Origin: Rouxiella sp. WC2420
GTDB taxonomy: Bacteria > Pseudomonadota > Gammaproteobacteria > Enterobacterales > Enterobacteriaceae
Assembly (NCBI RefSeq): GCF_041200025.1
Contig: NZ_CP165628.1
Coordinates: forward strand, 3,534,001-3,598,000
Direction: 5' to 3'
Length of the DNA: 64,000 bases
Part shown: positions 10,423-23,435 of the stretch, piece by piece
Layout of the letters: each line of letters opens with the position of its first letter
How positions within the stretch are numbered: position 1 is the first letter of the stretch
The notes under the pieces: generated by a model
The model's input: the letters and a program-made list of their open reading frames with translations, nothing else
The model's database searches: none
Told to the model about the DNA's origin: nothing
Made by a program: the position numbers and the translations under genes

Positions 10423-12153
10423 TTAGTAAGGTCCGAAAAGTTGATAGTATGTGCCATCAAACTGTATGTCTACGGTTTGATAAATTTTAGTTGTTGTAAA
10501 TTCGAAAGTAGAATAACCATTGATTTGCGATTCATTATTATATGTTAAAAAACTATAACTCCCTATTTCAAACAATCTAAACGTATATTTATACCCTGCT
10601 TGCGGAAGGTCTGCAATAGCAGGTAAAGTTATTGTAATACCAGGCACATTAATATAACCCAATGGGTAGTTAGTTGGCATTTTAATTGATGAACCGATCT
10701 GAAGTATTAACTCGGGTTTTTTAACATCACAGCCATTTGGGTCTATTATTCTAGTTAATTTTGACGGAGAGACCTCAGTTTCATTTTCAGTTTTTGCCCA
10801 AACTTCTGTAGCGAAAGCGTTAAGATTAGAAAATCGGAATCCAACCGTCGCATTAGATCTTTCCACAAAACCATTGTATGGCTGAGTTACTCCGCTTTGC
10901 GAAACGAAGTTATTACTATTGCCAGCAGAAAGGAACCCATAAGCCCAAGAGTGTAGTGTAGCTCCGTGTGCATAAAACCCAGCAGTAGCACCGTATTCTC
11001 CATCAAGGACTACCATGTCAATGCCATTTAATGAGTTCGGATTTTGTATCCCTTTATTAAGGATCCCTATTTCTAACCCTGTTGCCGTAATATAATCCGT
11101 GTCTTCAGGTATTATTATATTAAGATTACCTGCCCAGCCCTTGTTAAATGGGTTAATAACCAGGCCAACATTATCACTTGGCGTAGTTGTTGTACTGTTG
11201 CTGTTCGCCCACATATCTACAGTAACGGTTTTTCCTGAAATTGATTTTACAATCCCTTTGCAAGGTATAGCATGCTTCGTCACTAATACTGAGTTAACTT
11301 TAATTAAACTAGCAGCAATAGTATCAGCGCTGGAAAAAGTTGCCGTATTTGAAGAATAAGTACAAGAAGAAACATTCTTCCACGCTTCTCTTGGTGTCAA
11401 TGTGCAATCAGAATAAAGCGCCACCACATCAAGTGTGCCTAAATCGTAAAGCTCCATTGCAGATTTAACACCGGTCACCTGAGGAACCAACCCACCATGA
11501 TTTCCTGCATTAGTGCTGGGTTGCCCGCTTCTTATAGAAAGCCCAGTAGCGCCTCGGGTTAAACCTGTAGGTGTGTGCGAAATAGATAAAGAACCTGTGT
11601 GTAATAAATTAGTATCACCCAAGGCCTCTTGTATCTTCATAAGTACAAGATCATTAATCTCGTCATATCCTAAAAAAGGAGGTGCAACACCAATATCCTC
11701 AAGTCGCATAATTTGAGATAGAGCATTACTAACATTTGATTCTCTAAACCCTATTAAACTAGCTCCATCTGATCCAGCAAGATTTTGCCTAAGCGTGTCG
11801 CCATCCATTAAAACCAGATGCGTTACATCATTAATAAACGATGCACCATTAATTCCAGTGGTTGTAAATCCAACATCAGTTGTCGCATTTATTCGATAAT
11901 ATTGATTATCAAACCGTATAAATTGATTCCTGGCTGTAAAGGTTAACGGTCCATTTTCATACTGCCCGAGAAACTCATACCCAGAATCCAATAAAAAATC
12001 CTGAAATCTGTTTTCCTGACTGATCAACTGCCGAGCATGATCTTGCTCCATGCCGAACCATGTTTTACGTGCCTTACCAAGGCGGTCATTCCAGTTTTCA
12101 TTGACTTGATCAGCTGAAAGATGATCAAGATTCTGGGCGTTAACCTTTACGGA
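10423..12153 (-). pseudogene. Phage tailspike, 5'-truncated
   Basis: From the first ATG (12051) the frame encodes 542 residues. The open frame continues upstream in phase to 12153 (NAQNLDHLSADQVNENWNDR) and then meets a stop, with no initiation codon in that part. This upstream sequence is the usual start region of tailspike/tail-fibre proteins, so the first 20 or so codons are missing. The N-terminal region (GYEFLGQYENGPLTF to DGASLIGFRES) is a particle-binding type domain. The rest is strand-rich, as in beta-helix spikes that bind or cleave O-antigen. No ribosome site precedes the ATG at 12051. Expression is doubtful. Confidence 0.8.
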
Positions 12154-14259: not shown

Positions 14260-14528
14260 AAAGAAGCCCCATACTCCCGGATGAGTTGCACTCGCTTAGC
14301 TTCTACAATTGCAGGCAAGTCTGGGTAGTTGATGACTTCATCAACGCCCTGTACATTTCCAACATACCGGTATGAATCTCCCTTGCCACAAAGTGGTAAA
14401 CAGCGGATTTGCGGTTTAGATAGCGGATCAGATAGACTGTCCAAGCGATGGTTATTCCACAATGAAGAGCTGGCGCAAACCGGTGTGCGGGCTGCAACCT
14501 GCACACCAACCTCTTTTTGATTAATCAT
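14256..14528 (-). CDS. Phage early protein of unknown function
   Basis: A 90-residue protein starting MINQKEVGVQVAARTPVCASS. It overlaps the replication initiator by 4 bases and the CII-like gene by 4 bases, so it is tightly coupled in the PR operon. The first half is Ser/Cys-rich and the second half ends with IVEAKRVQLIREYGASL, a likely helix. No family was recognised. Confidence 0.7.
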   Translation of the reverse strand: MINQKEVGVQVAARTPVCASSSLWNNHRLDSLSDPLSKPQIRCLPLCGKGDSYRYVGNVQGVDEVINYPDLPAIVEAKRVQLIREYGASL

Positions 14529-14992
14529 TTCTTACCTGCCTTAAGTGACTTCGAATAAAGTCGAACGATTGATCTCACTTCATCTTCACGGGCAGAAATA
14601 TGGCGATTGTGATATGTCATAATTTCGTCTGCTTCGTCCTGAGTAATCACACCATCTTCCAAAGACTTTTCTATAATCTGATCAACATGACCACGATTAG
14701 CGGCAGTGCGGACGCCCTTTTCAAATAAACAAACTTGGTCCAACTCCTCATAGGCAGGAATATCCACATGCATACCCCCGCGCCGCTGAGAAAAATATTC
14801 GGCCAACAAACTTGTCCCTGATAGGTCTTCCATTGCTTCCAGTTCGTGGTGTTCGAAGAAGCGGCACCCGTTCTTTTCGTAAAGGTTGTTATTGAAATGA
14901 GCCAAGGTCATTCCCAAACCACCAGCCATAGCAGACCGGCCACCTGGTAACGCCTTGCACATCGCTTTCACTGTCTCTTTGATGTCTACCAT
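14525..14992 (-). CDS. CII-type phage regulatory protein (CP76 family)
   Basis: A 155-residue protein whose start (TVKAMCKALPGGRSAMAGGLGMTLAHFNNNLYEKNGCRFF) follows the PF06892 'phage regulatory protein CII' family, to which e14 YmfL belongs. The first part is a helix-turn-helix region and the rest is helical. Its position directly after cro in the PR operon is that of cII. It probably influences the lysis-lysogeny choice or early transcription. Confidence 0.8.
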   Translation of the reverse strand: MVDIKETVKAMCKALPGGRSAMAGGLGMTLAHFNNNLYEKNGCRFFEHHELEAMEDLSGTSLLAEYFSQRRGGMHVDIPAYEELDQVCLFEKGVRTAANRGHVDQIIEKSLEDGVITQDEADEIMTYHNRHISAREDEVRSIVRLYSKSLKAGKK

Positions 14993-15017: not shown

Positions 15018-15215
15018 TTAAATGGCTGTTGCTGTAGGTTTGTCATAAAGGCTTACATCCACCTTTAGAGCGCCTTTTGTAAGCACCTGAATTTCGAAAG
15101 CTCTTCCCTTTGGAATGAGTTCGGACCATCCAGATACGGATGCATGAGAGAGGCCTAGCGCTTTAGCCGTTTTTCCCACACCTCCGAAGTAAGTGATAAC
15201 TTCGTTTTTTATCAT
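15018..15215 (-). CDS. P22-type Cro repressor
   Basis: A 65-residue protein from the ATG at 15215, with GAAGGG four bases upstream. MIKNEVITYFGG, GKTAKALGLSHASVSGWSELIPKGRAFEI and LTKGALKVD follow P22 Cro step by step (DVIDHFG, AVAKALGISDAAVSQWKEVIP, VTAGALKY). Cro binds the OR/OL operators and turns down repressor and early transcription. It is divergent from cI, with the operators between them. Confidence 0.9.
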   Translation of the reverse strand: MIKNEVITYFGGVGKTAKALGLSHASVSGWSELIPKGRAFEIQVLTKGALKVDVSLYDKPTATAI

Positions 15216-15249
15216 TTTTCCCTTCAATTATTAGATTTGCGACAAAACG

Positions 15250-15317
15250 ATTGTAGGATAACTTACATTAAGGAGTCAAGGAATCCTACATTGCTTAATG
15301 TTAGGATTGCCTACATG
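15250..15317. promoter_or_regulatory. OR operator region with PR promoter
   Basis: On the minus strand TTGACT (15274-15279), an 18-bp spacer and TACAAT (15250-15255) form PR toward cro. The spacer carries an operator, TGTAAGTTATCCTACA on that strand (15252-15267). Two further related half-site pairs lie at about 15283-15306 and 15300-15317, the last overlapping the cI start. The same operator word is repeated exactly at OL (17085-17100). Confidence 0.85.
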
Positions 15318-15959
15318 GAAATGAATGAACGTATTCGCTCTAGGCGAAAAGAATTGAAATTAACGCAAGCTGACTTGGCTAAGCTGATCAAGGTCAATCG
15401 CGTTACAGTTACCGGTTGGGAATCTGGTGACTATAAACCTGGTGGTGAAAACCTCCAGATGCTTGCTGCTGCCCTAAAATGTCACCCTCAGTGGCTTGTA
15501 GATGGAACAAAAAAAGCAGAAGAAAATGTTTCTTACGTAGGTCCATATGAGCCCAAAGGTTCTTTCCCGGTTCTGAGTTGGGTTAGCGCGGGACACTGGG
15601 CCGAGGCAGTAGAATCATATCATCGCAAATCTATCGACCGCTGGTATGAAACCACTGTCGAATGCTCCGATCACTCATTCTGGTTAGATGTTAAAGGTGA
15701 CTCAATGACTGCACCAGCTGGGCTGAGTATCCCAGAAGGTATGGTTATCCTAGTTGATCCAGAAGTAGAGCCAATCAATGGAAAGTTGGTAGTAGCGAAA
15801 ATCGAAAATGACAACGAAGCTACCTTTAAAAAGTTTGTCACAGATGCCGGGAACAAGTACCTCAAACCACTTAACCCTCAGTACAGCATGATCCCTATCA
15901 ATGGGAACTGTACGATTATTGGTGTTGTGGTTGATGCAAAGATTGCAAACCTACCTTGA
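15315..15959 (+). CDS. P22 C2-type prophage repressor (CI)
   Basis: A 214-residue repressor. The N-terminal helix-turn-helix is ERIRSRRKELKLTQADLAKLI to TVTGWESGDY. The C-terminal peptidase S24 half contains the Ala-Gly cleavage site in SWVSAGHW, the catalytic Ser in GDSMTAPAGLS and the catalytic Lys in GKLVVAK. It is thus likely subject to RecA-stimulated autocleavage. Much of the C-terminal half is nearly the same as P22 C2 (LDVKGDSMTAPAGLSIPEG, IIGVVVDAK). The ATG at 15315 follows AGGA by 8 bases. An ATG two codons later is possible. Confidence 0.92.
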   Translation: MEMNERIRSRRKELKLTQADLAKLIKVNRVTVTGWESGDYKPGGENLQMLAAALKCHPQWLVDGTKKAEENVSYVGPYEPKGSFPVLSWVSAGHWAEAVESYHRKSIDRWYETTVECSDHSFWLDVKGDSMTAPAGLSIPEGMVILVDPEVEPINGKLVVAKIENDNEATFKKFVTDAGNKYLKPLNPQYSMIPINGNCTIIGVVVDAKIANLP

Positions 15960-15994
15960 ACATCATTAATTAATTATGATTAAGGGTTATGATT

Positions 15995-16420
15995 ATGAGA
16001 GTTTTTAGAGTTTTATCACTGTATACAGCTGAAATTTTTAAATTTGGTGATGGGAATTCCAGTGTTATCAATCAAGCTGTTTTTAATTTTGAGCAGTTCC
16101 CTGCCCCAATAAATTTCCTTGTGGGTGCTTATATTTTAGTTCCAAAATCAGATCCCTACTTTAATCTTCGATTTGATGTTTTTGATGATAAAGGCAAACC
16201 CATACATGATGAGATCCAGTCGCTTACTCCATTTAATCTAACAGAGTACAATAGTACGGAAAATGAAACAGTCCTCCATATCGTTTTTCAACCTAAAGAG
16301 CATATCTTAGTTAGCGAAGGCACTTACAGGGTAAACGCTACTTTGCTGAAAGATGAAGCCGTTCAAGATGAAATGGATAGTTATTTTATCGCTTCAACTG
16401 CCTGGCATAAGATGAGGTAA
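15995..16420 (+). CDS. Lysogeny-region protein of unknown function, gene 1 of a pair
   Basis: A 141-residue protein beginning MRVFRVLSLYTAEIFKFGDG. The ATG at 15995 has AAGGG eight bases upstream and is preferred over one six bases earlier. The sequence alternates strands with short turns (FNLRFDVFDDKGKPIHDE, VLHIVFQPKEHILVSEGTYRV), suggesting a beta-sandwich. No signal peptide or catalytic motif is evident. It lies 35 bp after the repressor gene on the same strand, the place where lambda carries rexAB. I infer expression from PRM in the lysogen. Confidence 0.75.
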   Translation: MRVFRVLSLYTAEIFKFGDGNSSVINQAVFNFEQFPAPINFLVGAYILVPKSDPYFNLRFDVFDDKGKPIHDEIQSLTPFNLTEYNSTENETVLHIVFQPKEHILVSEGTYRVNATLLKDEAVQDEMDSYFIASTAWHKMR

Positions 16421-16423
16421 AAA

Positions 16424-16723
16424 ATGGGTCAGGTTTTTAATTTCGATAGCAAAACCAAGTTAGACAATACTTTTTCTCAGGAGCATACTGAAGAAGGTTT
16501 TGTAAATAGTAAAAGCGGTGGCGGTGGAGGTGATATGGAGATAAGAATAGCCAGACTCGAATCTGATGTTGAGCATATTAAAAACTCTATAAAAGAGATA
16601 AAAGACGATGTGCGTGAGATAAAGAAAGATGCTCGCACTGATTTCAGATTGATTTTTGGAGCACTCATAGCTGTTGCTTTAGGGCTTGCTGGCATGATGG
16701 CCAAAGGTTTTCATTGGTTTTGA
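16424..16723 (+). CDS. Coiled-coil protein with C-terminal membrane anchor, gene 2 of a pair
   Basis: A 99-residue protein. Residues 1-36 are polar and end in a Gly-rich linker (SGGGGGD). Residues 37-73 form a strong coiled coil (ARLESDVEHIKNSIKEIKDD). Residues about 75-97 form one membrane helix (LIFGALIAVALGLAGMMAKGF). The layout resembles XhlA-like and similar small membrane proteins. It starts 3 bp after the stop of the preceding gene, so the two are coupled. The pair may be a rex-like exclusion or lysogenic-conversion module, which is inference from position. Confidence 0.75.
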   Translation: MGQVFNFDSKTKLDNTFSQEHTEEGFVNSKSGGGGGDMEIRIARLESDVEHIKNSIKEIKDDVREIKKDARTDFRLIFGALIAVALGLAGMMAKGFHWF

Positions 16724-16755: not shown

Positions 16756-16780
16756 AACCACCCTCTGCGGTGGTTTTTTT
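16756..16780 (+). terminator. Terminator of the repressor operon
   Basis: AACCACC and GGTGGTT form the stem with a 6-base loop, followed by T8. It ends the cI plus two-gene transcript. Confidence 0.85.
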
Positions 16781-17049: not shown

Positions 17050-17102
17050 TGTAAGTTTTCCTACAAATAATCTTGACGTCAATATGTAAGTTATCCTACA
17101 TT
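17050..17102 (+). promoter_or_regulatory. OL operators with PL promoter
   Basis: TTGACG (17073-17078), an 18-bp spacer and TACATT (17097-17102) form PL toward the left operon. The operator TGTAAGTTATCCTACA (17085-17100) overlaps the spacer and -10. A second operator, TGTAAGTTTTCCTACA, lies at 17050-17065. The architecture is the same as PR (TTGACT-18-TACAAT with the same operator word). Confidence 0.88.
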
Positions 17103-17152: not shown

Positions 17153-17253
17153 ATCAGGCTGATTCAACTCCCGCTGTAAGCATCCCTCTTAACCGAACCA
17201 TTCACTTTTAGAGATCTTCCGGCATACTGATTATGTCCCCTGAGGAGATCGCC

Positions 17254-17520
17254 ATGCGTAAGATTCGATTCACCGAACACCAGATCATCGCCGTTCTTAA
17301 GTCTGTCGAAGCCGGACGAACCGTCAAAGATGTCTGCCGCGAGGCCGCTATTTCAGAAGCCAGCTATTACAACTGGAAGGCGAAATATGGCGGGATGGAA
17401 GCCGCTGATATCAAAAAGATCAAAGATCTTGAAGACGAGAATCGTCGTCTGAAGCAGATGTTTGCCGATCTGAGTCTGGAATGCCGGGCGCTGAAAGACG
17501 TCATCGAAAAAAAGCTTTAA
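17254..17520 (+). CDS. IS3-family transposase OrfA
   Basis: An 88-residue protein from the ATG at 17254, which has GAGGAG six bases upstream. MRKIRFTEHQIIAVLKSVEAG to CREAAISEASYYNWKAKYGG is the helix-turn-helix (HTH_8) that binds the IS ends. DLEDENRRLKQMFADLSLE is the leucine-zipper for multimerisation. A7 at 17507-17513 (A AAA AAG) is a -1 frameshift site just before its stop, used to make the OrfAB transposase. Confidence 0.92.
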   Translation: MRKIRFTEHQIIAVLKSVEAGRTVKDVCREAAISEASYYNWKAKYGGMEAADIKKIKDLEDENRRLKQMFADLSLECRALKDVIEKKL

Positions 17521-18365
17521 AACCAGCGGTAAAGCGTGAGCTCGTCAACTATCTGACCGCGCAGTTTTCGATGAGCTTACGCCAGGCATGCAGGACGTTA
17601 TCGCTGAGCAGGACGGTGTTTCGTTATCAACCGGATACACGACGTGATGAAGCAGTGATCCAGAGCCTGACTGAGGCGGCTGAACGCTACCCTCGCTACG
17701 GATTTAAGAAGCTTTTTCAGGTGCTTCGCAGGCAGGGGCACGTCTGGAATCACAAGCGGGTACACCGGATTTACTGTCTGTTAAAACTGAATTTTCGTCG
17801 CAAGGGTAAACAACGCCTGCCGGTGCGCAATCCGGCTCCGCTGGCAACGCCGGAAGCGCTCAATCAAAGCTGGTCCATCGATTTTATGCACGACGCGCTG
17901 ACATGTGGCCGACGTTTTCGGACTTTCAATGTCGTCGATGATTTTAACCGTGAAGCTCTGGCTATCGAAATTGACCTGAATATCCCGGCACAGCGTGTCG
18001 TGCGGGTGCTGGACAGGATAGCGGCAAATCGTGGATATCCGCTGAAGATGCGAATGGATAACGGACCGGAACTGATATCACTGGCTCTGGCGCAATGGGC
18101 CGAAGAGCATGGCGTGATGCTGGAATTTATCAAGCCGGGTAAGCCAACACAGAACGCGTTTATAGAAAGGTTTAACCGAACGTACCGGACCGAAATACTG
18201 GATTTTTATCTGTTCAGAACGCTGAATGAAGCACGGGAAATCACAGAGCGCTGGCTGACGGAATACAACAGCGAGCGGCCTCATGAATCCCTGAATAACC
18301 TGACGCCGGAAGAATACCGGCTGATAGCTGAAAAACCGGAACTCTCAAAAAGTGCGTGGAACTAA
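17481..18365 (+). CDS. IS3-family transposase OrfB (DDE domain)
   Basis: The 294-codon frame overlaps orfA by 40 bp and is probably made mainly as an OrfAB fusion after -1 frameshifting at the A7 run. It has an HTH_21 region (YPRYGFKKLFQVLRRQG, WNHKRVHRIY) and an RNase H-like integrase core. The DDE triad is visible as WSIDFMHD, MDNGPEL and FIERFNRTYR. The terminal SERPHESLNNLTPEEY is typical. It appears intact, so the element may be active. Confidence 0.93.
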   Translation: MPGAERRHRKKALKPAVKRELVNYLTAQFSMSLRQACRTLSLSRTVFRYQPDTRRDEAVIQSLTEAAERYPRYGFKKLFQVLRRQGHVWNHKRVHRIYCLLKLNFRRKGKQRLPVRNPAPLATPEALNQSWSIDFMHDALTCGRRFRTFNVVDDFNREALAIEIDLNIPAQRVVRVLDRIAANRGYPLKMRMDNGPELISLALAQWAEEHGVMLEFIKPGKPTQNAFIERFNRTYRTEILDFYLFRTLNEAREITERWLTEYNSERPHESLNNLTPEEYRLIAEKPELSKSAWN

Positions 18366-20703: not shown

Positions 20704-21621
20704 GTGACTAATCCTCTCTTTAAAAACATCGTGATTTACCGCCTCAACCGTGAGGTATCTTTGAACATTGATGAGTTGAACACTCAGCTTTCGCATTTCG
20801 TATTTTCGCCATGTGGTAGCCAGGACATGGCGAAAACTGGCTGGGTTTCGCCGATGGGAAAGCTCAGTGATTCACTAACGCATTCAGTAAACGGCCAGAT
20901 TCTGCTTTGTGTACAGAAAGAAGAAAAGATCCTCCCTTCGGGCGTAATCAAGGCTGAATTGATTAACAAAACAGAACAAATTGAGCTGGAACAGCACCGC
21001 AAATTGAAGAAAACAGAGCGCGACTCGATAAGGGATGAGGTTCTACATACTCTCATGCCACGCGCTTTTACTAAGCAATCTCAGGTATTTATCTGGATTG
21101 ACACTTCAACCAGTCTGATCACAGTCGCCACGCCGAGCTCACGCCGCGCTGAAGATGCTTTGGCACTTTTGCGAAAGAGTTTGGGATCCTTGCCTGTCGT
21201 GCCGGTGACCATGGAAACACCTATCGAGCTGACTCTTACTGAGTGGGTGCGCAACGGCAATGTGCCAGCTGGTTTTGCTCTGGGAGATTCGGCTGAATTA
21301 AAAGCCATTCTGGAACAGGGAGGGATTGTCCGCTGTAAAAGGCAGGCTTTAGTTAGTGATGAGATTAGCGCTCATATAGAAAGCGGCAAACTTGTTACCA
21401 CTCTGGACCTGAATTGGCAGGAGCGAATTGGGTTCTCTCTCAATGATAGCCTGACCATCAAACGCATTAAGTTTTCTGACGCTTTACTTGAGCAGAATGA
21501 TGATATTGATCGTGAAGATGCCGCACAGCGCTTCGATGCCGACTTTGTGCTTTTCACTGGCGAATTATCAGCTCTGTATAACAACCTCTTCCAATCACTC
21601 GGCGGTGAAATTCAGCGTTAG
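20704..21621 (+). CDS. rdgC: Phage-encoded RdgC (recombination-associated protein)
   Basis: A 305-residue RdgC homologue. It starts with GTG behind [22 protein letters not shown] and [21 protein letters not shown] are the RdgC N-terminal signature, and [23 protein letters not shown] to [12 protein letters not shown] is the usual C-terminal part. RdgC forms a ring on double-stranded DNA and limits RecA loading. In a phage it may tune recombination at replicating phage DNA. It is the first large gene of the left operon, followed closely by HD hydrolase and exonuclease genes. Confidence 0.93.
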
Positions 21622-21705
21622 CAATTCATCAAGTCACCCGTAACCGGGTGGCTTCGTGAAGTGTTACCGGCGCTTGCAGGCGTCTTTTTCATTGTGGAGA
21701 TTTCT

Positions 21706-22227
21706 ATGACCCGTATTGCCACCTTTTCTGGTAAGTACCTCGACTACACCGCGCCAGACCCTCACGTTTTCGATAAAGATAGTATCGCTCAGGGCTTGTC
21801 CCATGAATGCCGTTTTAACGGGCAAATCCCGCAGTTCTACAGCGTGGCCCAGCATTCCGTCTTAACCAGTTACCTGGTGCCTCCGCACCTCGCATGGGAA
21901 GCCCTACTCCATGATGCCACCGAGGCATTTTGCAAAGACATTCCCGCGCCGCTAAAGCTGCTGCTACCCGACTACAAACGAGTAGAAGCCCGGTTGGATA
22001 AAGTTATACGCCTCAAATACTGCATACCACTGGTAATGAGTCCTGAGGTTAAAAAAGCTGACTTGATCATGCTGGCCACCGAGCGACGCGACTTTGAACT
22101 TTATGACGGTACCGAATGGCCTGTTCTGGTAGGCATAGAGCCATGCGCTCAACCGATTTGCCCGCTTAACCCAGCGCAGGCCCGCGCCCAGTTCCTCAAG
22201 CGCTGGGAAGAAGTCCAGCCGTACTAA
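21706..22227 (+). CDS. HD-domain phosphohydrolase (YfdR-like)
   Basis: A 173-residue protein starting MTRIATFSGKYLDYTAPDP. FYSVAQHSVL supplies the first metal-binding His, EALLHDATEAF the HD pair, and KKADLIMLATERRDF the final Asp. It resembles YfdR of prophage CPS-53, an HD-type 5'-nucleotidase-like enzyme. It probably removes phosphates from nucleotides during phage growth. The ATG is chosen because of GTGGAG just upstream. It belongs to the left operon. Confidence 0.85.
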   Translation: MTRIATFSGKYLDYTAPDPHVFDKDSIAQGLSHECRFNGQIPQFYSVAQHSVLTSYLVPPHLAWEALLHDATEAFCKDIPAPLKLLLPDYKRVEARLDKVIRLKYCIPLVMSPEVKKADLIMLATERRDFELYDGTEWPVLVGIEPCAQPICPLNPAQARAQFLKRWEEVQPY

Positions 22228-22260
22228 CCCTGTTTGCAGACAGGCATTGTGGAGATAACC

Positions 22261-22905
22261 ATGACAGTAAACGCAATCACCATCGATACCGAAACGATGG
22301 ATGTAACCACAACAGCGCTAATCCTCTCGATTGGCGCTTTTGCTTTCGATGTAACTGACTTGAACACAACGCAGCAGGCAATCATGGATGTATCAAATGA
22401 CATTGAGCTGCAGGACAACTCCAAGTTCGCATTTTATCGCTGTGTTGATTCTTTCGACCAGTTGATGTCAGGCCGCACTGTCAGCCCTTCAACCCAGAAA
22501 TGGTGGCATGAGCAAGGCGAAGAGGCTCATGAAGCCCTGACCGGTCAACGTCTTAGCCTGGGTGAATCCCTCTCAGACTTGAAGAGGTGGATAGCAACAC
22601 ATCCGGATGCACGGATCTTCTTTCGCGGTACCGACTTTGACGGCTCTATTTTAGAAAACGCTTATCGCGCTGCAGGAATCACCTGCCCGTGGAAATATAA
22701 CGGCAAGCGGGACATTCGAACGTACATCGATGCAATGGTGCGCGGCGGCAAAGGCTACATCAAAGACCACCAGCCCTGCTTCCCAATGATCAAACACAAT
22801 GCCCTCCACGATGCTATGGGCGACGCTGAACAGATGGCGACCGCATACATGATGAACGACGGTAACACTGTTCCCTCTTCTGAATTTAAAAAGGTGACAG
22901 CATGA
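22261..22905 (+). CDS. DEDD-type 3'-5' exonuclease (Rv2179c-like)
   Basis: A 214-residue protein. AITIDTETMDV holds the first Asp and Glu, FRGTDFDGSILENAYRA the second Asp and HNALHDAMGDAEQ the catalytic His and last Asp, giving the DEDDh set. The fold corresponds to the PF16473 family often named exodeoxyribonuclease VIII-like or 3'-5' exoribonuclease in prophages. It overlaps the beta-clamp-like gene by 4 bases, suggesting coupled synthesis and maybe a shared complex. Confidence 0.85.
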   Translation: MTVNAITIDTETMDVTTTALILSIGAFAFDVTDLNTTQQAIMDVSNDIELQDNSKFAFYRCVDSFDQLMSGRTVSPSTQKWWHEQGEEAHEALTGQRLSLGESLSDLKRWIATHPDARIFFRGTDFDGSILENAYRAAGITCPWKYNGKRDIRTYIDAMVRGGKGYIKDHQPCFPMIKHNALHDAMGDAEQMATAYMMNDGNTVPSSEFKKVTA

Positions 22906-23435
22906 TCCTTACCGCATCCAAACAAGCAATCCTCGGCGCCATGATTTTTATGGCAAAGAAAGATCCACGCTATTACCTTTGCGGGATCTGCTTCACTCCG
23001 GATAAGAAATTAATTAGCACTGACGGTCATCGAATGTTTATCGGTGAGCATGAAACTGAAGGGTTAACGGAAAATGTCATCGTCAGAATCACCGGCCCTC
23101 GTTTCATTGCGTTTGATCACCTGACGATTGATACCGAATCTGGGGTCGTAACCTACCTAGACAGTGTTGATAAAAAAGTTGGCTTGGCGCTCGGTGAAAT
23201 GATCGATGGAAAATATCCCGATTATAAACGCGTTTTACCCAAACAAAACGTTGCAGTTCATGAGATTGGATTTAATGCCGGTTATCTCAGCGATATTGAA
23301 AAATTGGTAAAACTCTATAACCGCAAATGGTCAGGGATTGCGATCAAGCCAAACGGGCCAGAAGGGTCTGCTCAAATTGATATCACTGGAGCATTCGGTA
23401 AAGCCTCCGTCATCGTCATGCCTATGCGCTTGTGA
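22902..23435 (+). CDS. Short DNA polymerase III beta-clamp-like protein
   Basis: A 177-residue protein, about half the length of DnaN (366). LISTDGHRMFIGEHE corresponds to the ATDGHRLA region of the clamp, DGKYPDYKRVLP to the GRFPDYRRVLP region, and the C terminus reads VIVMPMRL as in DnaN (VVMPMRL). The protein thus corresponds to selected clamp segments rather than a full three-domain ring. It overlaps the exonuclease gene. It could form a partial clamp or interact with the host clamp or its partners. Confidence 0.8.
   Translation: MILTASKQAILGAMIFMAKKDPRYYLCGICFTPDKKLISTDGHRMFIGEHETEGLTENVIVRITGPRFIAFDHLTIDTESGVVTYLDSVDKKVGLALGEMIDGKYPDYKRVLPKQNVAVHEIGFNAGYLSDIEKLVKLYNRKWSGIAIKPNGPEGSAQIDITGAFGKASVIVMPMRL

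Follow-up and report, generated by a model that had tools for sequence, protein, structure and literature searches.

In the window (the whole stretch of 64 kb that was analysed), two small genes, orfA and orfB, follow a cI-type repressor gene on the plus strand. The features of the region are as follows.

14525..14992, minus strand: CII-like activator (PHROG 101, E 7e-35)
15018..15227, minus strand: Cro-like regulator (PHROG 409, transcriptional regulator, E 1.5e-21)
15252..15266, minus strand: operator-like 15-mer GTAAGTTATCCTACA, OR side, between cro and cI, exact copy
15315..15959, plus strand: cI-type repressor (HTH_3 and Peptidase S24, Pfam E 5.7e-15 and 2.8e-30), with which the lysogenic transcript presumably begins
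15995..16420, plus strand: orfA (P), predicted 141-aa soluble Ig-like beta-sandwich (AF2 model, weak match to PHROG 5893)
16424..16723, plus strand: orfB (M), predicted 99-aa membrane-anchored coiled-coil protein (sequence, alignment of relatives, hydrophobicity)
16424..16516, plus strand: orfB N-terminal peptide, residues 1-31, placed from the sequence; co-inherited with the partner gene in relatives (family statistics)
16517..16534, plus strand: orfB Gly-rich linker GGGGGD, residues 32-37, from the sequence; a Gly-rich stretch is also present in aligned relatives
16535..16633, plus strand: orfB coiled coil, residues 38-70; exchange breakpoints of relatives fall here or in the linker
16643..16699, plus strand: orfB hydrophobic (transmembrane, TM) segment, residues 74-92 (hydrophobicity window), followed by the C-terminus KGFHWF
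16756..16775, plus strand: terminator-like hairpin and T run, 3' of the cI-orfA-orfB unit (hairpin scan)
17051..17065, plus strand: operator-like 15-mer GTAAGTTATCCTACA, OL side, 1 mismatch
17073..17102, plus strand: PL-like promoter TTGACG-18-TACATT, overlapping the second OL-like site (promoter pattern scan)
17086..17100, plus strand: operator-like 15-mer GTAAGTTATCCTACA, OL side, exact copy

On the minus strand to the left of cI lie the Cro-like and CII-like genes and then replication genes (PHROG). The gap between cI and orfA is 35 bp, or 29 bp if translation starts at the in-frame ATG at 15989, which would give a protein of 143 aa; orfA and orfB are 3 bp apart, and the scan found no terminator-like hairpin in the interval between cI and orfA. 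The coordinates and the hairpin scan thus confirm the original prediction of a gene pair, with spacings of 35 and 3 bp, between the repressor and its terminator. At up to 3 mismatches the three copies of the 15-mer are the only matches in the 64 kb, and three matches were reached in 3 of 100 shuffles. The region has four promoter-like matches, where shuffled sequence has 5.6 on average, so that the PL-like call is weak alone. Since the OL-side 15-mers and the PL-like promoter lie beyond orfB, the pair stands between the repressor on one side and OL/PL-like sites on the other, which is the position of rexAB; this too had been predicted, and the same order is annotated in phage epsilon34 (repressor gp46, gp45, gp44, OL/PL, N). 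In temperate phages the place downstream of the repressor is the one for exclusion genes expressed in the lysogen, and to our knowledge few exclusion systems of this slot have been described.

In the wider prophage, a pair of transposase genes (17233-18365, PHROG 151 and 157), which we take to be IS3-like from its layout, is located just to the right of the PL-like promoter and before the recombination genes; the leftward lytic operon may therefore be cut and the prophage may be defective. To the right of the transposase, at 20704-23435, are found in a row a recombination-associated exonuclease (presumably RdgC-like), a deoxynucleoside 5'-monophosphate phosphatase, an exonuclease and a RusA-like resolvase (PHROG). 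A tail-fibre-like protein (10423-12051, minus strand; PHROG 17635, E 2.7e-10) is encoded beside the replication genes, where a tail gene would not normally be expected. The genome also carries four further cI-like genes (at 2913958, 3037122, 3296413 and 3657130; E<=1e-30), and therefore probably several related prophages.

The AF2 model of orfA and a structure search give an all-beta, Ig-like sandwich, in keeping with the beta-rich protein originally described; ten-residue block means of pLDDT are 87-96 over residues 1-140, with one block at 67. Profile searches of Pfam and NCBIfam placed orfA in no family, PADLOC-DB 2.0 returned no profile match for orfA or orfB even at E<=10, and the matches of orfB were all sub-threshold, so that the early impression of no recognised family holds for both. 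The weak match of orfA to PHROG 5893 (E 4.1e-5, 24.7 bits) is to a group that matches a relative of orfA at locus L017 more strongly (5.6e-23). PHROGs 5893 and 5881 both hold orfA-like proteins, neither is given a function, and orfA itself matches only the former. Among 25 partners of the orfA-like beta class (see below), DUF6941 of Pfam matched one weakly (E 0.089), and orfA did not match. Relatives of orfA were seen at 29-30% (locus L013) and 24% (locus L195). Genes of this kind are rare among close relatives: of 392 genomes of the family, a single-sequence search at E<=0.001 found one in 2, of which one is the window's own. PHROG 5893 matched in 5 of 345 genomes of the order, in 4 of these in frames of 622-629 aa. 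Searches of phages and plasmids with orfA by tblastn found nothing, and the one 11-residue match (L002) from a pattern scan of viral contigs was judged to be chance.

The orfB protein has a single hydrophobic window, residues 74-92, within one long predicted helix (AF2). A coiled-coil protein with one membrane helix had been proposed, and with it a soluble plus membrane-anchored layout; the hydrophobicity and the predicted anatomy support both. XhlA proteins consist of a short coiled coil followed by one C-terminal TM segment. Against this family (PF10779) orfB scores 19.9 bits, below the gathering cut-off of 34.7, and 6 of 17 members of the orfB family match it at E<=0.01 (best 4.8e-5); RefSeq calls one homologue, in E. 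coli PK5, a 'hemolysin XhlA family protein'. A plain XhlA lysis protein was nevertheless rejected for orfB, as the score is under the cut-off and the context is wrong, orfB being in an immunity region and not among lysis genes. Several PHROGs without assigned function are matched by orfB, as is one 'virion structural' PHROG, weakly (E 0.054). A structural phage pair was rejected on the position in the immunity region, the lack of any structural PHROG for orfA and the weakness of this one match of orfB. By tblastn, orfB gave partial matches only, in 5 of 50,697 phage records, and by blastn the pair was found in one of 5426 E. coli genomes, 26% covered. When the two proteins were modelled with AF2 as one read-through chain no confident docking was obtained, and chain residues 151-180, which are most of the B N-terminal peptide, were disordered (block pLDDT 44-51).

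Relatives of orfB were collected by scans with an alignment of orfB relatives, which picked up 38 loci on genome contigs and 54 on viral ones, and by a scan with a broader coiled-coil alignment, which gave 130 relatives, 80 of which were used. The B-like family pooled from the fetched loci comprises 133 distinct frames, one of which is the window's and a few of which are fragments; it is spread over genomes that by their record titles are gamma-, beta- and alphaproteobacterial, and over viral contigs. A B match at E<=0.001 was obtained in 15 of 197 whole genomes of relatives, counting the window's own and some weak ones; among 369 genomes of the class the orfB alignment (A1) matched in 7, namely the window's own and six weak ones, of which L103, a 968-aa frame, was rejected as false. 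A typical B protein has a variable N-terminal peptide, a Gly-rich linker, a coil start with the consensus MEARVAKLE and one hydrophobic segment near the C-terminus. Exactly one hydrophobic window is present in 120 of the 133 frames, none in 10 and more than one in 3, and the last window ends no more than 15 residues from the C-terminus in 115 of the 123 frames that have any. Six types of TM segment can be distinguished by pattern, with others that fit none of the six; their frequencies are not natural ones, since the A1 scans were keyed on a LAGLMAKGF-type TM and the A5 scan on the coil start, and 80 of 130 relatives were used.

Directly upstream of B, a co-directional partner gene is present for 119 of the 133 frames. 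By class, 38 of these partners are beta proteins like orfA, 36 are zinc ribbons and 6 form a third class, with the class assignment of L073 being doubtful; the other 39 include small helical proteins, a pair that appears SNase-like by eye, and spurious frames. Twelve of the 119 were dropped as spurious by eye (L021, L026, L028, L031, L033, L040, L041, L044, L046, L047, L048 and L069). In the zinc partners the pattern CxxC...CxxC is invariant in the 24 of 36 that were aligned. From another set, alignment A9, L022 was omitted for its length. The distance from partner to B in the 80 classified pairs has a median of -4 nt, and 79 of the 80 lie within 20 nt, a closeness that is partly by construction, since the choice of partner allowed only -40 to +25 nt. 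It is clear that one membrane end can be found with unrelated partners: the TM type LAGLMAKGFHW is common to 8 beta, 14 zinc and 3 third-class partners, counts in which one beta and one zinc locus appear twice because the 133 frames include fragments and second copies (for example L075, which is frameshifted).

Other arrangements were also seen. In one relative genome (L107 and L121) two B-type genes stand tail to tail: a beta partner accompanies one, whose TM segment is outside the six types, and the other, of 85 aa and ending in LAGIMAHGFGWL, is without a recognised partner. At L246:1444-2489 (minus strand) a 119-aa partner of a further type, by eye presumably Cas2/SinR-like, precedes a B-type protein of 227 aa. 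At L043 and L045 a B-type protein comes after a gene that is SNase-like by eye, which raises the idea of a membrane-tethered nuclease. A scan for partners of the L109 type found one locus, and a natural fusion of A and B, sought via phrog_3556, was not cleanly present in any of the 6 of 147 genomes that matched.

The relationship between the partner and the two ends of B was then quantified (omitting L073, L075, L111, L193, L205, near-duplicates, and L081 and L143, which could not be split). In the beta class (n=31) similarity of the partners correlates with similarity of the B N-terminus (r=0.756, 0 of 2000 permutations) and not with that of the C-terminus (r=-0.006, 1031 of 2000). The zinc class (n=30) gives r=0.558 (0 of 2000) for the N-terminus and r=0.177 (31 of 2000) for the C-terminus, which is therefore weakly linked too, and all classes together, the third included (n=66), give 0.546 (0 of 2000) and 0.048 (86 of 2000). 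A correlation with the N-terminus is also expected from linkage alone, since this is the part of gene B nearest to gene A.

Furthermore, single exchanges can be read from pairs of loci. L173 and L175 are 97.5% identical over a block of 606 bp that begins 21 nt ahead of the partner gene and extends to B codon 44; the whole remainder of B is different in the two. Between phage epsilon34 and L145, a stretch of 605 bp is 97.7% identical and the partner proteins are 97.2% identical; no homology is seen across the B coiled coil and TM segment, and it resumes at the B stop codon (83.7% over 1,094 columns). The cro/repressor region upstream also fails to align. E. coli PK5 has a partner nearly identical to those of LR-60 and EPSSH018, a different membrane end, and homology that returns just after B; here the front part of the repressor gene and cro (in EPSSH018, more) do not align as one block. 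What stays constant in the swap pairs (L145 against L249; L248 against L252 and L253), where the cro/repressor front does not align, is thus the partner with the B N-terminus, and in the E. coli pairs also the rear part of the repressor; the DNA is variable on both sides of it, towards the repressor as well as at the membrane end. In 14 locus pairs that passed a filter demanding that homology end inside B, the end point falls somewhere from the linker to 32 codons beyond the start of the coil, and in no pair is the TM segment reached; these are not 14 independent events, as loci are shared, and pairs alike through the whole of B fall outside the filter. As judged from these alignments, B contains a recombination joint and an exchangeable membrane module, and orfA-orfB belongs to a modular prophage family with diverse partners in which the membrane segment is exchanged as a unit. 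Docking of B on its partner does not follow from these data.

The genes next to the cassettes were also compared. A co-directional frame of 95 aa or more lies within 400 nt upstream of 93 of the 107 kept partners and is missing for the other 14; of 92 upstream frames that were scanned, 45 contain HTH_3, 39 Peptidase_S24 and 12 Phage_CI_repr, some having more than one of these. The check put forward with the original prediction, recurrence of the pair beside different repressors, is answered in its favour by these domains. Seen from the repressor, 30 loci carry relatives of the window's cI and 27 are readable; a partner-B cassette follows it in 2 of the 27, the window and L212, where the partner differs from orfA, and the remaining loci have other genes or nothing recognised by eye. 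The slot holds a frame that we take to be DUF4065/Panacea-like in L217, a presumed nucleotidyltransferase-like pair in L231 and, in L215, a second frame with an S24-like motif. In 12 of 5426 E. coli genomes the L185 cassette, a beta partner joined to one type of B, is matched with a coverage of at least 80%, with a LexA-family gene adjoining in the matches listed; the PK5 prophage has the order LexA-family gene, P, 'hemolysin XhlA family protein', a frameshifted frame and N.

RexA and RexB of phage lambda resemble orfA-orfB in being a soluble and a membrane protein encoded by two co-directional genes between cI and OL/PL. RexB of the lambda type has four TM helices, in contrast to the one hydrophobic window of orfB, and membership of RexAB was rejected on this ground. 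RexA is absent from the fold matches listed for orfA, and the two may still be related. The available parts of PMC12894663 and PMC2629481 give the lambda rexA/rexB arrangement in the same way. In Pseudomonas putida prophage P1, antiphage activity was shown in 2026 for RexAB-pp, a pair located 3' of a CI-like repressor, as far as the accessible text of PMC12894663 goes. This is again a soluble partner with a membrane effector; it differs from orfA-orfB, on the same partial account, in a RexA-like DNA-binding protein, a RexB-type effector (PP_5644) with four TM helices and two extra genes, PP_3897 and PP_3898, between repressor and rexAB, whose single deletions were without effect on the phages tested (PMC12894663). 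In epsilon34, genes 44 and 45 were described in 2008, in the part of PMC2629481 at hand, as an apparent operon 3' of the repressor like rexA/rexB, with no database matches at that time. The pair gp45/gp44 is a member of the orfA-orfB family in the same slot: gp45 and the beta partner of E. coli type at L185 are 73% identical, and gp44 is B-like by sequence with a different membrane segment. Among the matches listed in a search of the open literature (titles and starts of abstracts, subscription journals lying mostly outside it), no description of a modular partner-B family was found.

The anatomy of the orfA-orfB family, its synteny with the rexAB slot and the shuffling of its modules are established; position, architecture and shuffling together suggest a role in defence. 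The reading that we favour, tentatively and at a little below an even chance, is of a lysogen-expressed soluble sensor or adaptor with an exchangeable membrane effector acting against superinfecting phage, Rex-like but not RexAB. The pair would be expressed in the lysogen from the repressor promoter. The Ig-like beta-sandwich of orfA would be the soluble sensor or adaptor, on which the N-terminal peptide of orfB probably docks; the flexible Gly linker would lead to the coiled coil and to a C-terminal membrane helix acting at the inner membrane. On superinfection, or on some other signal sensed through the partner, the membrane part would be set free or switched on and would then block the incoming phage or stop the cell, as has been proposed for RexA/RexB. 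Contact between A and B, sensing, membrane action and an antiphage effect are thus all presumed in this scheme. Against it stand the lack of a PADLOC match, the lack of a docked AF2 pose, linkage as an alternative source of the N-terminal correlation, the weak tie of the C-terminus to the partner in the zinc class, the occurrence of some members away from any immunity region, and the rarity of the cassette after related cI genes. The single deletions of PP_3897 and PP_3898, as reported in the part of PMC12894663 available, would also count against it if these two genes belong to the family.

Alternatively, the pair may have nothing to do with defence and may tune prophage induction or host membrane physiology, or have some other moron function. 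We consider this unlikely, albeit with several observations in its favour. The pair is linked immediately to cI, and not all members of the family are in an immunity region: in phage SPN3UB, gp24/gp25 are a zinc partner and a B-type protein, beside other small genes after the ant region and upstream of the tape measure gene. L115 and L116 have a similar arrangement near tail genes, by eye, and a Klebsiella phage has a relative of the zinc partner in a place like that in SPN3UB. A repressor neighbour is therefore not required. Recurrence of the cassette with different repressor types argues the other way, as does the filling of the slot after related repressors by different genes or by nothing recognised.

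A slightly less probable alternative is superinfection exclusion by a block to DNA entry, in which B would disturb a factor of the host inner membrane that incoming phages use, the partner serving only to stabilise or place B, with neither sensing nor killing. The place after the repressor and the one short hydrophobic segment near the C-terminus of most B proteins are consistent with this, and several unrelated TM types would suit different membrane targets; it leaves unexplained the occurrence of the one type LAGLMAKGFHW with three unrelated partner classes. An addiction pair that keeps the prophage in the cell, with B as a membrane toxin held through its N-terminus by an upstream antitoxin A, is improbable: the gene order and spacing (within the -40 to +25 nt searched) are typical of toxin-antitoxin operons and the zinc partner has a weak Foldseek match to the Zn domain of the MqsA antitoxin, but this match (E 0.34) is not significant, and a neutralising interface would not usually allow one antitoxin to be combined freely with different putative toxin domains, or one such domain with different antitoxins.

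The defensive sensor-effector reading can be extended from the pair to the family. Shuffling of sensors and effectors is a known habit of antiviral systems, and the manner in which the parts of this family are swapped between phages recalls it. The family may thus be a combinatorial prophage defence, in which interchangeable sensor cassettes (of Ig-like, zinc-ribbon and other types) with their own docking peptides are combined with interchangeable single-TM effectors at a Gly-linker/coiled-coil joint; this wider proposal is a speculative one, and the odds are clearly against it. The allele pairs PK5/LR-60 and epsilon34/L145, whose cassettes differ almost only in the membrane segment, are natural material with which the partner as putative determinant of specificity could be separated from the TM segment as putative determinant of outcome. 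In this family, which spans proteobacterial classes and viral contigs, one type of membrane protein pairs with several unrelated partners, with swapped membrane ends. If the combinatorial proposal is true, temperate phages would be able to re-pair recognition with killing by the swap of one DNA segment, often in the rexAB slot.
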